From: Bacteroidota bacterium | GTDB taxonomy: Bacteria > Bacteroidota > Bacteroidia > Flavobacteriales_D > Sanyastnellaceae | Direction: 5' to 3' | NCBI GenBank assembly: GCA_027619225.1 | Contig: JAQCFW010000006.1 | Coordinates: 1 to 64,000, forward strand | Length of the DNA stretch: 64,000 bases | Shown: positions 15,404 to 26,312 of the stretch, piece after piece | Numbering within the stretch: the first letter of the stretch is position 1 | Layout: each line of letters begins with the position of its first letter | Translations under genes and position numbers: made by a program | Notes under the pieces: model-generated | What the model saw: the letters and a program-made list of their open reading frames with translations, nothing else | The model's database searches: none | What the model was told of the DNA's origin: nothing

Positions 15404-17291
15404 TCGGCGAAATTACGTAAACGACAGTGCCTTTAGTTCTGATTTCCCCTCCGTCTAATAGTTTTCTTAAAATGTGAGATACCGCACTTTTGTGGCCTGC
15501 TTTGAATTTGCGGATAAGGTTGAAGGCATCGACCCCCTCAGGGTGAGCTATCCTCAGAATGCTTAAGAGTTTTTCCTCAGTCTTTCTGGGATTTAAGGTG
15601 CAGTTGTCACACACTCCACATTGACTCACAGGGTCGTCGCTGAAGTATAAATCGAGAACTTCTGAACGGCAACCTTCAGTTGAAATAAATCCTTGTATGG
15701 CGCTCCATTTATTATTGGCGGAATCTCTCCTGTCGGCATAAACCGAGGAGGGTAGGGTGATTTTTCCGGCTTTCATTCTTGCTGAAGGCCAAACAGCCTC
15801 ATACTCTGCTGCCTGAGGCATCCACTCAACTCGACCTTGAGCGTCTAAGGTTCTCAACGCAGAATCGATGACGTGCTCCGCTAATCCTAGCTCACTTCCG
15901 AGTTTTTTTGCCGAAGTCGAAATAGGTTCCATATCTAGCCCTATTCTCATTAAGTAAGATGCGAGTACGTCGGTTGGATGTGTCGTCTCATTCACAATGC
16001 TATTTCTACCTCCCAGCCACTTTACTTTCCCTAAAGAACTTCTGTGATTTTTAATTAACTCTATGTGGCCGGCACTATTTAAAAAAGACAGCGAAGCCAA
16101 AACCTCTGAAGTCGTGCATCTAGAATTTTTTGCAGACTCTTTAATATCAATGTTGGTGGGGTCGATGGGGGTGTCGCCTATTGCTACTTTGCCTTGATTG
16201 GCAATGGTTTGGTAAATATTCTGAATCGTTTTAAGTGATGGAAACATTTCCTTGATTTGGGCTTCACTCTTCTTTAAATCCCGTGCGCCTTGGAATAAGA
16301 TGCATCGAGAGGGGTTGCCATCGCGACCAGCTCGTCCTGCTTCCTGGACATAGCTCTCGATATTTGCGGGAGCGCCTACATGTAAAACCCACCTTACGTC
16401 TGCTTTGTCGATGCCCATTCCAAATGCGGATGTGCAGGCCATAATGGGCACCTTGCCGGAAATCCAATCTCGTTGGCGTTTTTGTTTGACGTTTTTTTCT
16501 AGGCCGGCATGGAATGAGGTGGCGCACAGTCCCACAGATGACAGTCTTGTCGCCCATCGATCGGCATTGTTTCGAGTCTTGACATAAACAAGTCCAGACC
16601 CTTTGAGTTTGCGCGCTAGAAGTAAGACTTCTTCTTCGGTATCACCCCAAGTGCTGACTTCAAATTCAAGGTTTGGCCTTCTCATCGAGGTGGTGTGGAT
16701 GCACCCGGCGTCGATCTTGAGTTGGGTTGCGATATCAGCGAGCACTTCATTTGTGGCAGTGGCTGTGTATGCACCCAGTACAGCTGTCGGATAGTAGGAT
16801 TTTAGAACGCTTACATTTCTGAACTCAGGTCTGAAATCGTGTCCCCATTGTGAAATACAATGTGCCTCGTCAATGGCTATGGTTCTTACATCAAGTAGGG
16901 GAGCCTGAGCTATGAAAAGCGGATCGTTAAGTCTTTCGGGAGAAAGGTATAGGAAGTCTAAAGCACCGACATTGGCATTGTTTAGAATTCTATCTATGTT
17001 ATTTCTGTCACCTGTTAGTGATGCTGCACGTGCGCCTAAAAGTTTAAGCTGGTTGGTTTGGTCTTCCATCAGGGCGATGAGAGGGGAAATCACGATGCAT
17101 AGCCCACCACGCACGAGGGATGGAAGCTGGAAGCATAAGGATTTTCCACCGCCAGTAGGTAAAAGAGCGATGACGTCTGTGCCTGAAGTGAGGGCAGATA
17201 CAGGGCCAACTTGAAACTTTCTCAGCGCGTCAAAACCCCAAATCTTCTTGAGAGTGGAATTGATTGTGGAATTTGAATCTGTCTGAGGCAT
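15396..17291 (-). CDS. recQ: ATP-dependent DNA helicase RecQ
   Basis: A 631-residue superfamily-2 helicase of the RecQ family, which unwinds DNA 3' to 5' in recombination and fork repair. Walker A is [15 protein letters not shown] near residue 44, the DEAH box is in [19 protein letters not shown] near 138, and motif VI is [10 protein letters not shown] near 315. The zinc-binding RQC region appears as [13 protein letters not shown] followed by CGVCDNC. I see no clear HRDC domain; the last 60 residues look like a small winged helix, matching the shorter RecQ paralogues of this phylum. It overlaps rlmI by 8 nt and is divergent from tpiA, 26 nt away. Confidence 0.93.
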
Positions 17292-17305
17292 ATTTGCACA
17301 AATAT
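17290..17305. repeat. Palindromic element between recQ and tpiA
   Basis: ATATTTG, a CA spacer and CAAATAT form perfect 7-bp arms covering 16 nt. It lies within the 26-nt recQ-tpiA intergenic gap and touches the first base of the recQ start codon. Each arm reads as a near-match to the -7 consensus (CATATTTG on the plus strand, GATATTTG on the minus strand), so it could serve divergent promoters. Confidence 0.5.
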
Positions 17306-17317
17306 CAGATATCTAAG

Positions 17318-18076
17318 ATGAGAAATATCGTAGCAGGAAACTGGAAAAGCAACAAATCTATAAATGAGGCCCGTGAGTGGATAGCTGTAATGGGTGTGGC
17401 GATGGGTTCTATGCCAAAAGACGTGAGGGTAATGATAGCTCCTCCAGCGCCTTATTTGTCTGAGCTCTCCGGGAGTGAACTTAATGGAATACTCATTGCG
17501 GCACAACAAGTTAGTGCGTTTTCTGATGGTGCTTATACTGGTGAGTTTACTGCTAATATGCTCGTTTCTTGTGGAGTGGACTATGCTTTGGTGGGCCACT
17601 CGGAAAGAAGAGCTGACTTCGGGGAGTCAGATGAAATAGTTGCCAAAAAAGTGCGTAGATGCATTGATGCTGGTCTAGGTGTGGTGCTTTGCTGTGGTGA
17701 AAACCTTGCTTCGAGAGATGAGGGAAGTCAGGAGTCGGTAATTAAAGCTCAGCTTGTCTCTGCCTTTGATGGTGTTAGCTCAGAGGAAATGGCAGGCGTA
17801 GTGGTTGCATATGAACCTATTTGGGCTATTGGAACAGGGAGGACTGCATCTGCTGCTCAGGCAGCGGAAATGCATCGTTTTATTAGACATTACCTCGCCG
17901 ATAGGTTTGATGCTGATACCGCATTGAAAACTTCAATTTTATATGGCGGAAGTTGTAAGCCATCGAATGCAGATGAGATTTTTACAAGTCCCGATGTAGA
18001 TGGAGGATTGATTGGTGGCGCTTCGTTAGACACGTCTGATTTTCAGTTAATTATAAAAGCTGATTCAAGTCTTTAA
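17318..18076 (+). CDS. tpiA: Triosephosphate isomerase
   Basis: TpiA interconverts dihydroxyacetone phosphate and glyceraldehyde 3-phosphate in glycolysis. The start at 17318 gives MRNIVAGNWKSNKS, with the substrate lysine Lys10, and a standard length of 252 residues; an upstream in-frame start would add 18 atypical residues and run into recQ. The electrophilic histidine is in VGHSERR near residue 92 and the catalytic glutamate in AYEPIWAIGTG near 165. The phosphate-binding end reads YGGSCKPSNA and GGLIGGASL. It is followed 19 nt later by prmA, a common neighbour in this phylum as I recall, so the two probably form an operon. Confidence 0.97.
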   Translation: MRNIVAGNWKSNKSINEAREWIAVMGVAMGSMPKDVRVMIAPPAPYLSELSGSELNGILIAAQQVSAFSDGAYTGEFTANMLVSCGVDYALVGHSERRADFGESDEIVAKKVRRCIDAGLGVVLCCGENLASRDEGSQESVIKAQLVSAFDGVSSEEMAGVVVAYEPIWAIGTGRTASAAQAAEMHRFIRHYLADRFDADTALKTSILYGGSCKPSNADEIFTSPDVDGGLIGGASLDTSDFQLIIKADSSL

Positions 18077-18095: not shown

Positions 18096-18974
18096 ATGAG
18101 TAGAGAATTTATACGTGCTGACTATCTTAAACTCGACATTAAGTTTACGCCTTTGCTGCCGGCACGTGAGGTCGCTATTGCCTGGCTTTCAGAGTTGGAT
18201 TTTGAAGTTTTTGAACCTACAGACGAAGGTTTGACAGCGTATATTCCCGAGCAATTTGTAGGTAAGCCTGAGCTTTTAGATGTTAAAATGAGATTGATGG
18301 GATTGGCTGAGGTTGTTTGGTCTGAAAGTATCGTGAAGACAAGGAACTGGAATGCTGAATGGGAAGCGAATTACGAGCCTGTTTATGTCGGAGAAAGAGC
18401 CATAGTAAGAGCGCCTTTCCACAGTTTGCCGGAAAAGGCAGAGAAGGATTTTTTAGATGTTGTTATCGTGCCTCATATGTCTTTCGGTACAGGGCACCAC
18501 GATACAACACTTTTAATGATGCACACTTTGCTAGATTTAGAAGTCAAAGGGATGACGGTATTAGACATGGGTTGCGGAACCGGGGTGTTAGCAATCGCAG
18601 CTTTGAAGCTTGGAGCAGCCTCAGTACTCGCGATCGATATTGAAGAGGGAGCCTACATAAACACGATAGAAAACGCTGAATTGAATGGTTTTTCTGTAGA
18701 TGATCGTCTTGTTGTGGTTTGTGGCGACGCTTCAAATTTGTCTGGGACGCGTATAAATGATGTTATTCTTGCGAACATAAATAGGAATATTTTAGTTCAG
18801 GATATGTCATGTTATGACAATGTCTTGAGTCCTGGAGGCCAAATCGCTTTGTCTGGATTCTTTGTTGGAGATGTGCCTGTTTTACAAAGGGTGATCGATG
18901 GGCTTGGGTGGCGTGTTGAGGAGGTTAAGGATAGTGAAGGGTGGGCGTGTATTATTTGTGTGAAACCCGAGTAG
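18096..18974 (+). CDS. prmA: Ribosomal protein L11 methyltransferase
   Basis: PrmA adds methyl groups to ribosomal protein L11 using SAM. At 292 residues it has the normal length. The short N-terminal substrate-recognition domain is followed by MSFGTGHHDTTLLMM near 128-142, a signature of the family, and the SAM-binding loop VLDMGCGTGVLAIAALKLGA near 153. DVILANINRNIL near 227 matches the catalytic NPPF/NIxxN-type region. It lies 19 nt after tpiA and 45 nt before the large secreted-protein gene. Confidence 0.94.
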   Translation: MSREFIRADYLKLDIKFTPLLPAREVAIAWLSELDFEVFEPTDEGLTAYIPEQFVGKPELLDVKMRLMGLAEVVWSESIVKTRNWNAEWEANYEPVYVGERAIVRAPFHSLPEKAEKDFLDVVIVPHMSFGTGHHDTTLLMMHTLLDLEVKGMTVLDMGCGTGVLAIAALKLGAASVLAIDIEEGAYINTIENAELNGFSVDDRLVVVCGDASNLSGTRINDVILANINRNILVQDMSCYDNVLSPGGQIALSGFFVGDVPVLQRVIDGLGWRVEEVKDSEGWACIICVKPE

Positions 18975-19019
18975 CAGTTATAGCAGATACTCATCAATGA
19001 CTTCCTACATTGTAGGTTG

Positions 19020-22000
19020 ATGCGAGGAACAAATTCATTATACACGTTAAGGTCTGTAATAGCAATTGCAGCGATGTGTATTATTTGGTCAATCTCTTTT
19101 GAAGCGTTCGCTCAGTCAGACCAGTCACCAAGGGATGATTTGCCATCTGCTCAATCCTTTGTGAAGGAACTTCAAGATGATTTTGCTAAAGGCGAGGCTG
19201 AAAACTCAGCGTGGCTCCGTAAGGTTTTCACACCTCAGCTTTTAAGCCCCTCTACGCCTAAGTCGATTCAGGACACAATCATTTCAACGACTTTACAGCT
19301 GCAGTCGATTCATCTCAAGAATTCTTCTGGAATTGTTGGATATTTGAGGGGCGTTTCTGAGCAGCTTGATACAGGAATGGATTCTGTTCTTTGGGGCGAT
19401 TGGCACGCCCAAATAGCCGCAATGTCTGAAAATAAGAGGTGGAGAAAAGAAATCAACAATTACCTTGAGATTTCACCTAAGCTTTTTAAAAATGGATCAA
19501 TAGCAGATGAGGGTTTGTCTGGCTGGCATTTCGATGGGGGTGAAATGGAGTTTGGAATAGACTCATTGCCGTATGTGAAATTTACCGATGGATCACTCGT
19601 TTGTACTTTAAATGGTGACACATCGAGAATAAGGCAAACGAACGGCGTGTTTTTACCCACTTTGTCTAAATGGAAGGGTGAGGGAGGATTTGTGAATTGG
19701 GAAGGGACAGTATTTGTAGATAGCCTTCAGTTCGTCGAACTAAACGATTACGAGGTGAAGCTTTCGGGGAGTTACTTTTCAGCATACCCAGTAACGTTTC
19801 ACACAAGTCTTTTCGATGAGGCGATAGAAGGCAAGCTCGATTTTAAAGTCAAAGCCTCGAGATCGATTCAGGAGCAGACTTACCCTAGGTTTGAGTCAAA
19901 GGCAGAGAAGCTAGTGATTGTAAATATTTTCCCCAACATGGATTTTGTGGGAGGCATTGTTGTCAAAGGCTCTAAGCTAAGTGGCACGTCCATCGGGGAC
20001 ACCCCGGGATATTTAAAAATCTACAACAATGATACACTCTTTGTTCGCTGCTTTGTAGATGAGATGTTGTTTATGCGTGAGGGGTTGTCAGCTACAAAGT
20101 CAACAATATCTATTTACTTGGACAAGGACAGTATTTACCATCCAAACATCGCCGTGAGATACGATGATATAGGCAAGAGACTTCGCGTTGTTAGAGATGA
20201 AGAAGGCGTAGGACTGCAGGCATTTTCCGACTCCTACCACAAAATTGATTTTCATGTAGAGGCGTTGACATGGGAAATTGGTGGTAGAACAGTAGATTTA
20301 GGCGCTATAGTCCCTTCGAGTCGTGCCTTGGGGGTCTTCAGATCTCATGCAAATTTCGACAAGCGAACTTTTGACAATATGACGGGCCAAGCTTTAATTA
20401 ACCCACTTGTGGAGCTGGGGCGCTTTGTACATAGCAACCCATCTTCTGGTTTCTACGCTTCTGAGTATGCCTCTTTCCTAAAACTGAGCGTGGTTCAATC
20501 TAGATTAATACTCATGAACTTGGCCCTTGAAGGTTACGTTACTTACGATGAGACGGATTACTGGTGTGAATGGTTACCTAAAGCGGAAAAGCACCTACAA
20601 TGCAATAGATTTCTTATAGATTATGACGTTCTTGCTTTTCGTTCAGAAGTCTTAAACGGAGTGAACGCTCAGCTTGGTTTGGTAGACAAAACACTTGAAA
20701 TTCAAGGTCTTTCAAGCTTTAAACTCAGCGAAGCCCAAAACGTAGTGGTGTCTCCTAAAAACGGATATATCAAAATGTCTGGAAATCGAGATTTTACATT
20801 TGGCGGACGCGTACAGGCAGGTAATTTCGAGTTTAATGGAAAGAACTTTAAGTTTAACTATGACGATTTTACAATTGCATTAAACGCTGTTGATCAGATG
20901 CATATTCGAGCAGAAGTTGAGGGGGAGAAAGGAGTCGATGGAAACCCAAAGACCAGGTTAGTAAGAAACTCTATAGATGGAATTTCTGGCACCATAGAGT
21001 TGGATCATCCCTCAAATCGATCCGGTTGGAAGTCAGAGTTCTACACTCACTATCCAGTTCTTAACAGTGTGAAGCCCTCGTATGTTTACTACGACTCACA
21101 GAACATACATCAAGGTGCTTACCACAAAAATAGATTCAGGTACGCTTTAGATCCTTTCGCTATAGATAGCTTGGACAACTTTATGAAGGCAAATATGAGT
21201 TTTACTGGAGAGCTTTTAGCAGATGGGATTATTCCCAATCTCGAAGTCGATCTAAAACTAATGGATGACTTCTCTTTAGGAATAGAGGCCAGTAGTCCTC
21301 CAGAAGGATTTCCCCTTTTCTTAGGTGTGGGTACTATATACGCTGATTTAAAGCTCAATATGAACGGTCTTCAAGGAACTGGAGAAATAGAATTCCTGAC
21401 TTCTAATTTTCGAGGTGAGGACATGGTTTTGGTTCCAGACTCAGCCTTCGGAAATACGAGTGAGTATATTAACAATGCTTCTTACGAACATGTGCCTGAG
21501 GTCTTCGCAACTACGACAGAGTTTACCCTCAATAGAAATATACAATCGGGTGATCCAGTACTCGATGTAAGGTCTGATTTAAGCAGGTTAAAGTGTTTTA
21601 ACGACAATGTGTTGCTTGGAGGTGCACTTCACTTGAGTAGGTCTGGTATGACGGCGAATGGTGAGTTTGAATTTGAAGATGCCTTCCTAACATCCAAGTT
21701 GTTTAACATGGAAGAACGAGCTATCCTTGCTGATACCGCACATTTCGAAATTACGGGTAACGATTTAAATGCACTCGCTTTTGAAACGGAAAATGTGAAT
21801 GCAAATGTGAATTTCGACAGACGTGCTGGTGAATTCATTTCTCACGAAGGGGTTACTGAAATTGCTTTGCCGGCTGTGAGGTACATCTGTGAAATGGATA
21901 GGTTTACATGGTTTATGGATGATGACCAAATCGAATTGGAAAACTCTTTCACTGATAACGAAGAACTCTTGTTCTCAGACTTAGCCGACCGAAAGTATTC

Positions 22001-23522
22001 AAATTTCTTTTCCGTCCATCCAGGTCAGGACTCCCTTCACTTTTCATGTACAAAAGCATTGTACATGGTAGAAGAAGCCGTGGTAATGTGTAGAGATGTA
22101 AGAGCTATGGCAGTTGCTGATGCTGAGATTTGGCCTGATAGCGGAAACGTAACAATAAGGAGAGATGCTGCGATGGACATCTTACTTAATGCGCAAATTT
22201 ATGCGAACGATGTCTCGCGTTACCACAGGTTTTTTGATGCGAAAGTCTTTGTGCGTGGGCGCTTAGATTACCAAGCTTCAGGCTCATATATTTATAAAGA
22301 TGCTGTGGGAATTGATTGGCCTATCTTTTTCAAAAACATCGCAGTTGATGATTCATATACTACTTTTTCTCAGGGCGATATTGAGATTGATCAAGAGTTT
22401 TATTTAAGTCCTTATTTTGAGTTCACTGGGGAAGTAATGCTTCAGGCCAATAGAAAAAATTTAGAATTTGAGGGAGGTACGAGACTTGCTTTCGAATGTG
22501 ATAAATTTAGGCGTGAGTGGATCCGATTTAATGGTGTGATAGACCCTGTAAATGTAGCAATCCCTATTGATTCAGTAGTTAAAGAAATGATGATGTCACA
22601 TTTAGGGGTGGGGGTATTGCTCACGGATGATTCGCCTTTCGAAGCGTATGCTGGGTTCTTTACGAAGAAGCCTGACAGAGGCGATATAGAGATTTTTAAA
22701 CCTGAGGGAAATCTGAGATTTGACAAGGCCAATTCAAGGTATGTTGTTGCTTCTGATGATAAATTCCGCAACCCAAAGCTGCCAGGGACATTAACAGAAC
22801 TCCCTTTTGATGGTTGTGGAGTATTTTCCTCGGGGTCGACTACTCTGCCTCTAGATTTAAGTATTATTGACCACACATTTGTGGGTGATGTTTGGGAAAG
22901 TGAGTCTGGCAAGATCGAGATGCGAGGATCTCTTGCTTTAAATATGTATATGTCGAAAGATTTAGAATCCCATTTGGCTGAGCAACTCACAAATGCTTCC
23001 GTTGCGACACCCCTTGATTTCAGTTCTACCAATTATGAATATGCTTTAAGAGAGATTGCAGGGATGGAAGTGGCTGACAATGCTCTTAGAGAATTATCGA
23101 GAGAAGGAACGTATAAAAAGGTACCTAAAGAAGTGAGGTTTACGATGATGCTCACAGGTCTTGAGCTTGCGTATGATCCATATGAAGATGCGTTTATTTC
23201 TACTGCAGAAATAGGAATCGCAACAATAGGAGATGACGCTGTCTTCAGAACGATGCCTGGAAGGGTAGAGTTAGTTCGGGGAAGAAATCGCGATGAGTTA
23301 AAAGTCTATTTTCATATCAGTGAGGGACATTGGTATTATTTCGAATATGATACTTTTTTAAACTTCGAGACCAATGACATGTACTTTATGGAAGTCTGGA
23401 ATAAACTCAAGCCCAAGGAGAAGGTGTTAACACATCCAGTTACTGAAAAGTCCATAAAAATGCAAGTATCTAGGAGTGGTCTTCGTGATGAATTTGTAGA
23501 TAGATTTCGTGATTTTGAATAA
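19020..23522 (+). CDS. Large (1,500-residue) secreted protein of unknown function
   Basis: I do not recognise a named family here. The protein begins with a signal peptide (VIAIAAMCIIWSISFEAFAQ), so it is exported. No transmembrane helices, T9SS sorting domain, catalytic motif or lipobox is visible. From about residue 180 it appears to be almost wholly short beta strands with alternating polar and hydrophobic residues, as in long beta-taco or beta-solenoid proteins of the AsmA/TamB/LptD kind (for example IKMSGNRDFTFGGRVQ, GNFEFNGKNFKFNYDDF, GALHLSRSGMTANGEFEFED). Two similar feature blocks near 570-620 and 860-920 may be repeats. The start is the ATG at 19020, next to an in-frame TTG. It follows prmA and precedes fadH by 17 nt. 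A role in lipid or polysaccharide transport is only a guess. Confidence 0.85.
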   Translation: MRGTNSLYTLRSVIAIAAMCIIWSISFEAFAQSDQSPRDDLPSAQSFVKELQDDFAKGEAENSAWLRKVFTPQLLSPSTPKSIQDTIISTTLQLQSIHLKNSSGIVGYLRGVSEQLDTGMDSVLWGDWHAQIAAMSENKRWRKEINNYLEISPKLFKNGSIADEGLSGWHFDGGEMEFGIDSLPYVKFTDGSLVCTLNGDTSRIRQTNGVFLPTLSKWKGEGGFVNWEGTVFVDSLQFVELNDYEVKLSGSYFSAYPVTFHTSLFDEAIEGKLDFKVKASRSIQEQTYPRFESKAEKLVIVNIFPNMDFVGGIVVKGSKLSGTSIGDTPGYLKIYNNDTLFVRCFVDEMLFMREGLSATKSTISIYLDKDSIYHPNIAVRYDDIGKRLRVVRDEEGVGLQAFSDSYHKIDFHVEALTWEIGGRTVDLGAIVPSSRALGVFRSHANFDKRTFDNMTGQALINPLVELGRFVHSNPSSGFYASEYASFLKLSVVQSRLILMNLALEGYVTYDETDYWCEWLPKAEKHLQCNRFLIDYDVLAFRSEVLNGVNAQLGLVDKTLEIQGLSSFKLSEAQNVVVSPKNGYIKMSGNRDFTFGGRVQAGNFEFNGKNFKFNYDDFTIALNAVDQMHIRAEVEGEKGVDGNPKTRLVRNSIDGISGTIELDHPSNRSGWKSEFYTHYPVLNSVKPSYVYYDSQNIHQGAYHKNRFRYALDPFAIDSLDNFMKANMSFTGELLADGIIPNLEVDLKLMDDFSLGIEASSPPEGFPLFLGVGTIYADLKLNMNGLQGTGEIEFLTSNFRGEDMVLVPDSAFGNTSEYINNASYEHVPEVFATTTEFTLNRNIQSGDPVLDVRSDLSRLKCFNDNVLLGGALHLSRSGMTANGEFEFEDAFLTSKLFNMEERAILADTAHFEITGNDLNALAFETENVNANVNFDRRAGEFISHEGVTEIALPAVRYICEMDRFTWFMDDDQIELENSFTDNEELLFSDLADRKYSNFFSVHPGQDSLHFSCTKALYMVEEAVVMCRDVRAMAVADAEIWPDSGNVTIRRDAAMDILLNAQIYANDVSRYHRFFDAKVFVRGRLDYQASGSYIYKDAVGIDWPIFFKNIAVDDSYTTFSQGDIEIDQEFYLSPYFEFTGEVMLQANRKNLEFEGGTRLAFECDKFRREWIRFNGVIDPVNVAIPIDSVVKEMMMSHLGVGVLLTDDSPFEAYAGFFTKKPDRGDIEIFKPEGNLRFDKANSRYVVASDDKFRNPKLPGTLTELPFDGCGVFSSGSTTLPLDLSIIDHTFVGDVWESESGKIEMRGSLALNMYMSKDLESHLAEQLTNASVATPLDFSSTNYEYALREIAGMEVADNALRELSREGTYKKVPKEVRFTMMLTGLELAYDPYEDAFISTAEIGIATIGDDAVFRTMPGRVELVRGRNRDELKVYFHISEGHWYYFEYDTFLNFETNDMYFMEVWNKLKPKEKVLTHPVTEKSIKMQVSRSGLRDEFVDRFRDFE

Positions 23523-23539: not shown

Positions 23540-25597
23540 ATGCCAAAAATAAATAAATTTCCCCTACTTTTTTCCCCCATTAAACTTGGCTCACTGACGC
23601 TATCAAATAGAGTCATCATGGGGTCAATGCATACTGGTCTAGAAGAAGAAAAGGGAGGATTTAAACACCTTGCTAGATTCTATGCAGATCGTGTTAAGGG
23701 AGGGGTGGCGCTTATCGTAACGGGGGGTATTTCACCTAACAGAGCTGGGGTGACTATTTTCGGTGGGGCGAGACTATCAAACATCTTTCATGTCGCCAAG
23801 CACAGGGTGATAACTAATGCTGTAAAATCTGAGGGAGGAAATATTGTTATGCAAATTCTCCATGCAGGGAGATATGCCTATACACCATTTAATGTGGCAC
23901 CTTCAGCGATCAAAGCTCCCATAAATAGATTTAAGCCCAGAGCCCTTTCTTCAAGAGGAGTAGAAAGGACGATAAAAGATTTCGTAAAGACAGCGGTCTT
24001 AGCTAAAAGAGCTGGATATAGTGGGGTGGAAGTAATGGGGTCGGAGGGGTATTTAATTAATGAATTTATTGCATCGGAGACGAACCACAGAACAGATAAA
24101 TGGGGAGGGAGTTTCGAAAACCGAATCCAATTTCCCAAAGATATAGTTAGGCGCATACGAGAAGCTGTGGGACCAGATTTTTTGATTATGTACAGGTTAA
24201 GCATGTTGGACTTGGTAGTTGGAGGTAGCTCTTGGGAAGAGGTTGAGCACCTTGCGAAGGATATTGAGATTGCAGGGGCGGATGTAATTAATACAGGAAT
24301 TGGTTGGCATGAGGCGAGGATTCCTACCATTGCGACGATGGTTCCTCGAGGTGGTTTTGCCTTTGTAACGAAACGACTCATGGGAAAGGTGGGGATCCCC
24401 CTCATTACCACCAATCGCTTTAACGACCCTGTAGATTGTGAGAAGGCACTTAAAGATGGATGTTCAGATATGATTTCTATGGCTCGGCCTTTCCTTGCAG
24501 ACCCCAATTTGATGAAAAAGGCTCAAGAAGGTGAGTCTGAGAAAATTAATACTTGCATAGGGTGTAACCAAGCATGCTTAGATCATGTATTTAAACGCAA
24601 AGCTGCTTCTTGCCTTGTTAATCCACGTGCGTGTGAAGAAAACAAGTGGTTTGATGCTTCAATACAGGCCAGTTCCAACGGAAAGAAAGTGGCCGTAGTG
24701 GGTGGTGGCCCAGCTGGAATGAGCTGTGCTTCGGAACTTGCCAGCTTGGGATTTGAGGTAACACTTTTTGAGCAATCCCATGAATTGGGAGGTCAATTTA
24801 ATGTTGCCAAACTTATCCCAGGTAAAAACGAATTTCAAGCTACGATAAGACATTTTTCAAGTAGGCTTTTAGATTTAGGCGTTGATGTGCGCTTAAATAC
24901 AAAAGCTGATGCTGAACAGTTAAAAGCTGAGGGGTATTCAGATGTAGTACTTGCTTCTGGAGTTCTGCCAAGATCTTGGAAAATACCTGGTTCTGATAGG
25001 CCAGAGGTAGTCAACTATTTAGATGTTTTACGTGGGAAGGTTTCTGTTGGGGAGAGGGTAGCTATTGTGGGCGCCGGAGGAATAGGATTCGATGTGGCTG
25101 ATTTCCTCACCCACGACTCAGACTCTGAGGGGTTCCATAAGTCTTGGGGTATAGATAAGAATTTATCCGAGCGGGGAGGTCTGATTTCGTCTGCACGAAC
25201 GAAGTCTAAGAGGTCTGTTCATCTTTTACAGCGTAGTCCGGGAAAACCAGGCGCAAAACTCGGAAAAACTACCGGTTGGATTCACAGGATGACCTTGCGG
25301 GAGCGTGGCGTAAACATGTGGGGTGGCATAACGTATTCGAGGTTAGATAATGAAGGCCTACACCTCACTCACCTAGAAAAAGGTGATGTTACTCTCAAAG
25401 TGGATACTGTCGTAGTTTGTACTGGCCAAACTCCATTTGCACCCCTTCTAGAAGAATTAAAATCCTCGGGACTCAACATCTCTCTCATAGGAGGCGCAGC
25501 CAACTGTAGAGGGTTGGATGCTCAAAGGGCAATTCGAGAAGGTCTCAAGCTCGCAACAGAGCTTGCAAAGGAGCTCGCAGCTAATGTCTCAGCTTAG
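23540..25597 (+). CDS. fadH: 2,4-dienoyl-CoA reductase-like flavoprotein
   Basis: A 685-residue enzyme with the FadH layout; FadH reduces 2,4-dienoyl-CoA during breakdown of unsaturated fatty acids. Residues 1 to about 330 form an Old Yellow Enzyme FMN barrel (SPIKLGSLTLSNRVIMGSMH, LHAGRYAYT, GYLINEFIASETNHRTDKWG). CIGCNQACLDHVF and the following cysteines near 334-355 bind a 4Fe-4S cluster. The rest holds FAD and NAD(P)H sites (VAVVGGGPAGMSCASELA, VAIVGAGGIGFDVADFL), and GGQFNVAKLIPGKNEF is typical of FadH. Related trimethylamine dehydrogenase-like enzymes share this layout, so the substrate is inferred. The end overlaps the convergent plsC by 17 nt. Confidence 0.88.
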   Translation: MPKINKFPLLFSPIKLGSLTLSNRVIMGSMHTGLEEEKGGFKHLARFYADRVKGGVALIVTGGISPNRAGVTIFGGARLSNIFHVAKHRVITNAVKSEGGNIVMQILHAGRYAYTPFNVAPSAIKAPINRFKPRALSSRGVERTIKDFVKTAVLAKRAGYSGVEVMGSEGYLINEFIASETNHRTDKWGGSFENRIQFPKDIVRRIREAVGPDFLIMYRLSMLDLVVGGSSWEEVEHLAKDIEIAGADVINTGIGWHEARIPTIATMVPRGGFAFVTKRLMGKVGIPLITTNRFNDPVDCEKALKDGCSDMISMARPFLADPNLMKKAQEGESEKINTCIGCNQACLDHVFKRKAASCLVNPRACEENKWFDASIQASSNGKKVAVVGGGPAGMSCASELASLGFEVTLFEQSHELGGQFNVAKLIPGKNEFQATIRHFSSRLLDLGVDVRLNTKADAEQLKAEGYSDVVLASGVLPRSWKIPGSDRPEVVNYLDVLRGKVSVGERVAIVGAGGIGFDVADFLTHDSDSEGFHKSWGIDKNLSERGGLISSARTKSKRSVHLLQRSPGKPGAKLGKTTGWIHRMTLRERGVNMWGGITYSRLDNEGLHLTHLEKGDVTLKVDTVVVCTGQTPFAPLLEELKSSGLNISLIGGAANCRGLDAQRAIREGLKLATELAKELAANVSA

Positions 25598-26312
25598 CTT
25601 GAAGATCTTTAACAGCCTCGAAGCTCTTGTCCCTTAATTCCTCTACATTAGAGGAGTAAATGGGTTTTCCGAATCTTACTACAACAGGTTTTGAAGGCTT
25701 TCTTATGATAAAAGTATGCGGAGGCAAGATCTCTCCCATGCCCTCATGATAAACAGGTACTACTGGAGCTCCAGCATTAGAAGCAAGATGAAAACCGCCC
25801 TTTTTAAATGGTTGAATTTCATTCGTTTTGAATCGACTTCCTTCAGGGTACACGAGTACGCTACGACCATTTCTCAATGTTTTCTCCAACTTTTTAATGG
25901 CCTGCTTTGCCATTTTAATATTCCCTCTTTCTACGAAAACGGTTCCCACTCTTTCATTCGCGCCACCCAGAAGAGGAACTTTTTTTATTCCAGCTTTTGC
26001 AATAAAAACGATGGGAGTAGGTGTAGATGCAAAGGCTAAGTTTATATCTAAGTAGCTAGAGTGATTGGAAACCAAAACCGCTCCACGGCCCGATTTAAAT
26101 AACGCCTCAGTTTCAGGATGTAACTGAACATCTAGCTCAGCTCCGACGATCCACTTCATCAGAAACTCACTCCAATATTTCTTCGCAAATTTCCTTAAAA
26201 CCAACTCAGAACTGTTCGGGAAAATAATGAGAGTTATCAAAGCTGTACCACACCAAAAGGCTGAATACCATACAGTCAATACAGTCCTGAAAAACCCGAT
26301 CACTAACCTCAT
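25581..26312 (-). CDS. plsC: 1-acyl-glycerol-3-phosphate acyltransferase
   Basis: PlsC transfers an acyl chain to lysophosphatidic acid, giving phosphatidic acid for membrane lipids. The 243-residue protein has one N-terminal hydrophobic segment (VIGFFRTVLTVWYSAFWCGT) that anchors it to the inner membrane. The acyltransferase motifs are NHSSYLDIN near residue 81 (the NHx4D box), FVERGN near 129, and YPEGSRF near 154. It starts on the last base of the rluE stop codon (TGATG), so translation is coupled to the upstream pseudouridine synthase. Other members of the PlsC superfamily, such as lyso-ornithine-lipid acylases, cannot be excluded. Confidence 0.9.
   Translation of the reverse strand: MRLVIGFFRTVLTVWYSAFWCGTALITLIIFPNSSELVLRKFAKKYWSEFLMKWIVGAELDVQLHPETEALFKSGRGAVLVSNHSSYLDINLAFASTPTPIVFIAKAGIKKVPLLGGANERVGTVFVERGNIKMAKQAIKKLEKTLRNGRSVLVYPEGSRFKTNEIQPFKKGGFHLASNAGAPVVPVYHEGMGEILPPHTFIIRKPSKPVVVRFGKPIYSSNVEELRDKSFEAVKDLQAKLRH

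Follow-up and report, generated by a model that had tools for sequence, protein, structure and literature searches.

A class-wide exported protein of Bacteroidia with a predicted Lpt-type fold is a candidate envelope lipid carrier

Introduction

The stretch analysed here (the window: positions 1 to 64,000 of contig JAQCFW010000006.1, from a bacterium of the phylum Bacteroidota) carries at 19020..23522, on the plus strand, the gene of a 1500-residue exported protein, here called X, whose family in the Bacteroidia has no name. The question raised by this locus is what such a protein does in the cell envelope. To our knowledge, the passage of lipids other than lipopolysaccharide (LPS) through the periplasm of Bacteroidota is an open question. 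We propose, giving the idea an even chance, that X is an additional Lpt-type lipid carrier of the envelope, a reading suggested by structural models. X is a concrete and testable candidate for such a carrier, as it is 1500 residues long, exported, class-wide, uncurated, predicted to be of Lpt type in part, and set in a conserved neighbourhood.

Results

Gene X encodes an exported protein of no characterised family

The open reading frame (ORF) of X starts with an ATG at 19020, just after an in-frame TTG at 19017. A comparison with the relative at locus L002 (84% identity) gave a nonsynonymous divergence (dN) of 0.096 and a synonymous divergence (dS) of 1.48, the latter near saturation, over 1494 codons. 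X evolves under purifying selection, and these values, together with open relatives in 309 of 396 genomes of the class, indicate that the ORF is not a chance one.

The N-terminus contains a single hydrophobic segment with a conserved AQ at its end, which resembles a cleaved signal. The predicted signal peptide spans residues 1–32 (19020..19115, plus strand), with putative cleavage near AFA-Q; the most hydrophobic 19-residue spans begin at residues 12–13, and Q32 of the AFAQ motif is conserved in 41 of the 43 aligned members. Beyond residue 40, no clear membrane segment was seen, the best 19-residue span averaging 1.53, just under the usual threshold of 1.6 for a membrane segment. A lipobox was not seen by eye in the N-termini of the members, and no sorting domain was found in X. 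These results bear out the original prediction, made from the letters of the window, of a 1500-residue exported protein at this position with neither anchor nor sorting domain.

The protein had also been described as belonging to no recognised family, and this held. The full sequence gave no match in Pfam or NCBIfam at E ≤ 10, and 42 members, scanned as residues 33–1000 and 560–1500, gave isolated weak rows in single members (best E 0.0014–0.0041). PADLOC gave no match, PHROGs gave one meaningless row (E 0.3), and rows from the PDB by sequence were at chance level. Profile searches placed X in no characterised family, and the titles and abstract openings listed in searches of the open-licence literature contained no description of it, absence there being no proof.

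A stretch of X is predicted to share the fold of the Lpt proteins

The structure was predicted with AlphaFold2 (AF2) in two overlapping pieces from alignments of 42 rows: model 1 (residues 33–1000; pLDDT 88.8, pTM 0.69) and model 2 (residues 560–1500; pLDDT 90.2, pTM 0.62). Merged, the models contain 101 strands over 669 residues, in agreement with the long run of beta strands that had been anticipated. In the models X is not beta throughout. Six helices at residues 44–158 (19149..19493, plus strand) form an N-terminal domain, strands follow from residue 160, a winged helix occupies residues 446–533 (20355..20618, plus strand), and strands continue to about residue 1290, where a mixed alpha/beta C-terminal region begins (residues 1290–1500; 22887..23519, plus strand). 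For this last region no structural match was seen, no search having been made with the region alone.

In Foldseek searches at E ≤ 0.001, all eight matches of model 1 were LptD chains, with probabilities of 0.20–0.84 and whole-length TM scores of 0.08–0.15. Six of the eight matches of model 2 were named LptD or LptDE; another was 4q35, titled 'membrane protein', which we take to be LptDE, and the remaining one was a teneurin-like chain, the whole-length TM scores again being low. A superposition of X on LptD over the whole length (268 residues at 9.9 Å or 243 at 28.8 Å) was rejected as not meaningful. The LptD alignments with an acceptable root-mean-square deviation (rmsd) fell in the N-domain of LptD, a protein whose C-terminal part is a 26-strand barrel of the outer membrane (OM). 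Rows for lipovitellin and ApoB also occurred among the Foldseek matches and were not used.

The teneurin-like chain bears on the reading that X is secreted and forms a beta-rich shell or sits on the cell surface, as an RHS/teneurin-like cocoon or an adhesin would. It was the top Foldseek match of model 2 by E-value (1.2e-5), whereas its TM score was 0.06, its rmsd 47 Å and its probability 0.21. Pfam gave no match in X to RHS repeats or to any other family, and a single-copy gene that is retained class-wide and whose product has no detected sorting domain fits such a protein poorly. We consider the shell very improbable.

Local comparisons by VIA-align localised the resemblance. Residues 812–968 of model 1 matched LptA (2r1a) with Z 11.9 over 120 residues at 3.0 Å, and the same stretch matched LptC (Z 10.8; 130 residues, 2.7 Å), LptH (Z 10.5) and LptD (Z 9.0). 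Residues 264–469 of model 2, about 823–1028 in the numbering of X, where this model is uncut, yielded the LptD N-domain (Z 10.7; 154 residues, 3.9 Å) and LptC (Z 9.6) in place of LptA. Models without clear matches typically reach a best Z of 7 to 8 in this method, and the Lpt matches of X exceed that. These results localise the Lpt (OstA) beta-jellyroll fold, in the models, to residues about 823–1028 (21486..22103, plus strand).

The strands had originally been likened to those of AsmA, TamB and LptD, as in a bridge-like protein. The LptD type was recovered by Foldseek and by Z values of 10.7–11.9 over about 200 residues, whereas the link to TamB was not found. TamB, other beta-taco proteins and eukaryotic bridge proteins were absent among the structural matches listed, which excludes nothing, and the TamB C-terminal domain PF04357 had no Pfam match in X. 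Of a bridge running the whole length, residues about 823–1028 and, by duplication (see below), about 290–593 stand; the remainder is not tied to the Lpt fold. The proposed structure prediction and structure-based search thus returned a partly Lpt-like fold and nothing that shows X to be unlike a beta-taco or solenoid.

The strands are amphipathic, with a mean difference between faces of 2.14 over 54 strands, compared with a mean of 1.34 and a maximum of 1.84 in shuffles. A hydrophobic groove would produce this pattern, but so would any sandwich.

The Lpt-like unit is duplicated, and a predicted winged helix interrupts the first copy

When the profile of X was compared with itself by hhalign, residues 290–593 (19887..20798, plus strand) aligned with residues 836–1053 (21525..22178, plus strand) with E 4.3e-6 in the whole profile and 5.8e-8 between the cut units. 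The controls gave at best 0.002 in 40 block shuffles, 0.13 with the second unit reversed and 0.028 with the whole profile reversed. Because it is duplicated in profile with the second copy, the first copy probably shares the Lpt fold.

The winged helix falls in the gap of the duplication alignment and therefore looks like an insertion that splits the first copy. An early hint of this domain came from a search of the PDB with the X profile, in which weak rows at positions 449–520 included winged-helix proteins (E 0.08–1.9). By VIA-align, the modelled domain matched RIO2 (Z 9.6) and MarR-type proteins (Z 9.0–9.3) over 68–84 residues at 1.9–3.2 Å. A PriA helicase found in the survey below was aligned over 45 positions of the X profile, a part that we take to be the PriA winged helix.

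X is widespread in one class of the Bacteroidota

X is single-copy in the genome of the window. A search with the single sequence found it in 52 of 60 relatives, and in 36 of 41 among the better genomes. The profile search, in samples drawn in different ways for each rank, found it in 190 of 199 genomes (53 of 55 genera) of the order and in 309 of 396 genomes (153 of 196 genera) of the class, the class sample being of at least 95% completeness; the phylogenetic profile that had been suggested as a check thus revealed a class-wide spread. In the phylum sample, 12 of 296 genomes matched. The lone one from outside the class, in G312, was identified by Pfam as a PriA helicase and was aligned over profile positions 474–518 only, and the true count is therefore 11.

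The families f18, f19 and f90 are mixed for carriage of X. Its absence from families that fill much of the phylum sample may be why X has been overlooked so far. Six named carrier loci come from metagenome-assembled genomes (MAGs) of Flavobacteriales and Bacteroidetes, and one of the six, L007 (30% identity), from a MAG that bears the label Bacteroidales. Plasmids and phages, searched by tblastn, contained no match at E ≤ 1e-3. In a few relatives (G375, G042, G690, G629 and others), one stop is marked inside the stretch matched to X, which could be an assembly error, a frame artefact or recoding.

X accompanies the known envelope systems

Of 40 relatives, the genome of the window among them, 39 contain LptD_2 and all 40 contain an OstA_2 protein; TamB was detected in 56 of 60 relatives and in every one of the 40 genera. 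These systems are present in nearly all of the relatives tested, which indicates that X adds to LptD, the OstA-like protein and TamB, and replaces none of them. The assembly of the window's genome (G000, 97% complete) contains no PF04357 match anywhere, which had suggested X as a substitute for TamB; this candidate role was ruled out by the presence of TamB in the relatives, and the missing gene is probably an assembly gap. Attempts to delete tamB or tamL in Flavobacterium johnsoniae yielded no mutants, according to a study that counts seven AsmA-like proteins (PMC12045153).

The same counts bear on the reading that X is part of the LPS route itself and adds, in its lineage only, a further segment to the bridge that carries LPS or a different surface glycolipid. 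The match of its fold to LptA, LptC and the LptD N-domain would agree with such a role; the route, however, already has its usual parts in these relatives, and entire families of the class lack X in the genomes listed. We regard a place within the LPS route as quite unlikely.

A giant PD40/SPOR protein is a candidate partner

In 27 of 83 X loci, a giant ORF lies downstream of X, one to three genes away and on the same strand (L089:6060-12698, L090:9551-15946, L194:1647-6389 and 24 further loci). The neighbourhood set comprises 83 loci after exclusion of L080, a duplicate on the same contig. The giants are all mutually homologous, look exported and measure 983–2415 residues as fetched, a length that is often truncated where the fetched sequence stops. 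Pfam coverage was slight: among six giants scanned, PD40 was found in six (one below the curated cut-off), SPOR in two and TPR in three (mostly below the cut-off). The consensus of nine giants showed, by reading, three SPOR-like repeats.

At E ≤ 1e-60, a cut-off that was set after the values had been seen and gives counts that ignore phylogeny, the giant profile matched, among the 396 class genomes, 183 of the 309 that carry X and 1 of the 87 that lack it. The next-best non-carrier value was 8.9e-59. In the single exception (G765, family f91), X may have been truly lost or may be missing from the assembly. The other 126 carriers fall below the cut-off, the genome of the window included (best 7.6e-45).

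The giant is central to the leading rival to lipid transfer, in which X carries no lipid and serves as a scaffold or assembly factor of the envelope. It would act together with the giant at the peptidoglycan, to tether the OM to the cell wall, for instance, or to assemble OM proteins. The adjacency and co-occurrence argue for it, and a winged helix in an exported protein suggests binding of protein rather than DNA. The TamB tube, too, has been proposed as a chaperone of OM proteins (PMC12045153). Against this role stand the 126 carriers without a giant at the cut-off. Furthermore, solved proteins with the Lpt fold handle LPS. We judge the scaffold somewhat unlikely.

Gene neighbourhood

As originally noted, X directly follows tpiA and prmA. 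On the plus strand, tpiA (17264..18076), named from sequence, is followed by prmA (18096..18974; PF06325, E 3.6e-45) and, after a gap of 45 nt, by X. An inverted repeat, CCTACA-T-TGTAGG (19004-19016), with six-base arms and a one-base spacer, lies 3 bases 5' of the start codon, and a promoter/terminator scan gave a number of sites not above that of shuffles. A gene for an NADH:flavin oxidoreductase (23540..25597, plus strand; PF00724, E 8.2e-79) begins 17 nt downstream of X and is probably in the same operon. Its convergent neighbour encodes a PlsC-type acyltransferase (25581..26312, minus strand; PF01553, E 1.1e-28), and the two genes overlap by 17 bases (25581-25597).

Neighbours across the 83 loci were grouped as single-linkage BLAST clusters, with plsY and prmA each named by Pfam on one member. 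The commonest order is prmA-X-plsY: prmA is immediately 5' of X on the same strand in 56 loci and plsY immediately 3' in 28, while the flavin oxidoreductase takes the 3' position in 13, and tpiA homologues lie within five genes in 52. The TamB gene is directly beside X, in convergent orientation, in three genomes of two genera (G016, G031, G035), two of them within the 83 loci.

PrmA was sought in 25 non-carrier genomes and matched in 22, and the 19 loci with a full prmA were searched with the X profile. None contained a diverged X in the prmA slot, and in two of them, both from family f15, prmA is directly followed by plsY. These results suggest that X is a cleanly gained or lost gene in this slot.

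Discussion

Beyond what had been predicted, the analysis adds the class-wide spread of X, the assignment of the predicted Lpt fold to one of two duplicated units, the helical domain, the winged helix within the first unit, the prmA-X-plsY order and the giant as a candidate partner. From the export signal, the family, its conservation, the duplication and the gene order, all legible in the sequence, together with the predicted folds, we infer the location, cargo, direction and partners of X as follows. X would be a soluble periplasmic, or OM-associated, protein consisting largely of an Lpt-type beta-jellyroll sheet, laid out as a helical cap, two related units with the winged helix in the first, and a mixed alpha/beta domain. 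The hydrophobic inner faces of the sheet would form a groove that shields the acyl chains of a lipid, and X would hand that lipid, or a lipid-like molecule, through the whole periplasm or a part of it, in parallel with TamB and with the LPS route of the OstA-like protein and LptD. Membrane partners, or the PD40/SPOR giant, may dock on the helical cap and on the winged helix; in lineages that encode the giant, it may also anchor the complex to the cell wall. In favour of this reading stand the confident models with their matches to LptD, LptA and LptC, the duplication, the amphipathic strands, the adjacency of X to plsY, to the giant and to the TamB gene, and the co-occurrence with the giant. 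A bolder version, in which X is a second dedicated Lpt-type bridge of Bacteroidia, distinct from TamB and from LptD with the OstA-like protein, that moves bulk (phospho)lipid from one membrane to the other, is held in the cell wall by the SPOR giant where there is one, and uses its winged helix for docking or gating, seems unlikely to us.

Several observations weigh against transfer of lipid by X. A shared fold is no proof of shared function, and Lpt proteins superpose on only about 200 of the 1468 residues of mature X; alignments over the full length are poor. The strongest LptA match comes from the truncated end of model 1, whose final 30 residues are modelled at a pLDDT of 53–70, and LptH reached a Z of only 7.9 on model 2. 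Residues 1091–1500 lie outside the duplication (E 0.02 and 0.05), and neither a membrane anchor nor an OM barrel is evident that would hold a bridge at either end. OstA and LptC domains gave no Pfam match in X or the 42 members, and hhalign gave E 0.12 both against 17 OstA_2 proteins and against six TamB relatives, four of them partial; the best value of any X segment, 0.019 with TamB, was within the range of shuffles. In addition, no carrier occurs among the listed genomes of families f14–f17 and f22. The association with the giant is lessened by the choice of its cut-off, the neglect of phylogeny and the carriers that fall below it. Adjacency to plsY may be only positional, given the two non-carrier loci in which prmA and plsY adjoin, and adjacency to TamB is possibly one old rearrangement.

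The winged helix of the model has the same fold as those of MarR, RIO2 and PriA but sits inside an exported beta protein, and DNA binding by it outside the cytoplasm is implausible. X resembles TamB and the AsmA-like proteins in being about 1500 residues long, beta-rich and exported, and its gene adjoins tamB in the three genomes mentioned; it differs from them in having a cleavable-looking signal in place of an obvious anchor, and in the missing PF04357 and the hhalign value given above. No LptD barrel is evident in X, which coexists with both LptD and the OstA-like protein. To LptA, LptC and the LptD N-domain it is linked by the one stretch that superposes, by export and by its richness in amphipathic strands. 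It differs from them in its duplication, its winged helix and helical cap, and its size, about eight times that of LptA, and it gives no match by sequence profile. By sequence, X is not filed as a member of the Lpt proteins, but it may work like one.

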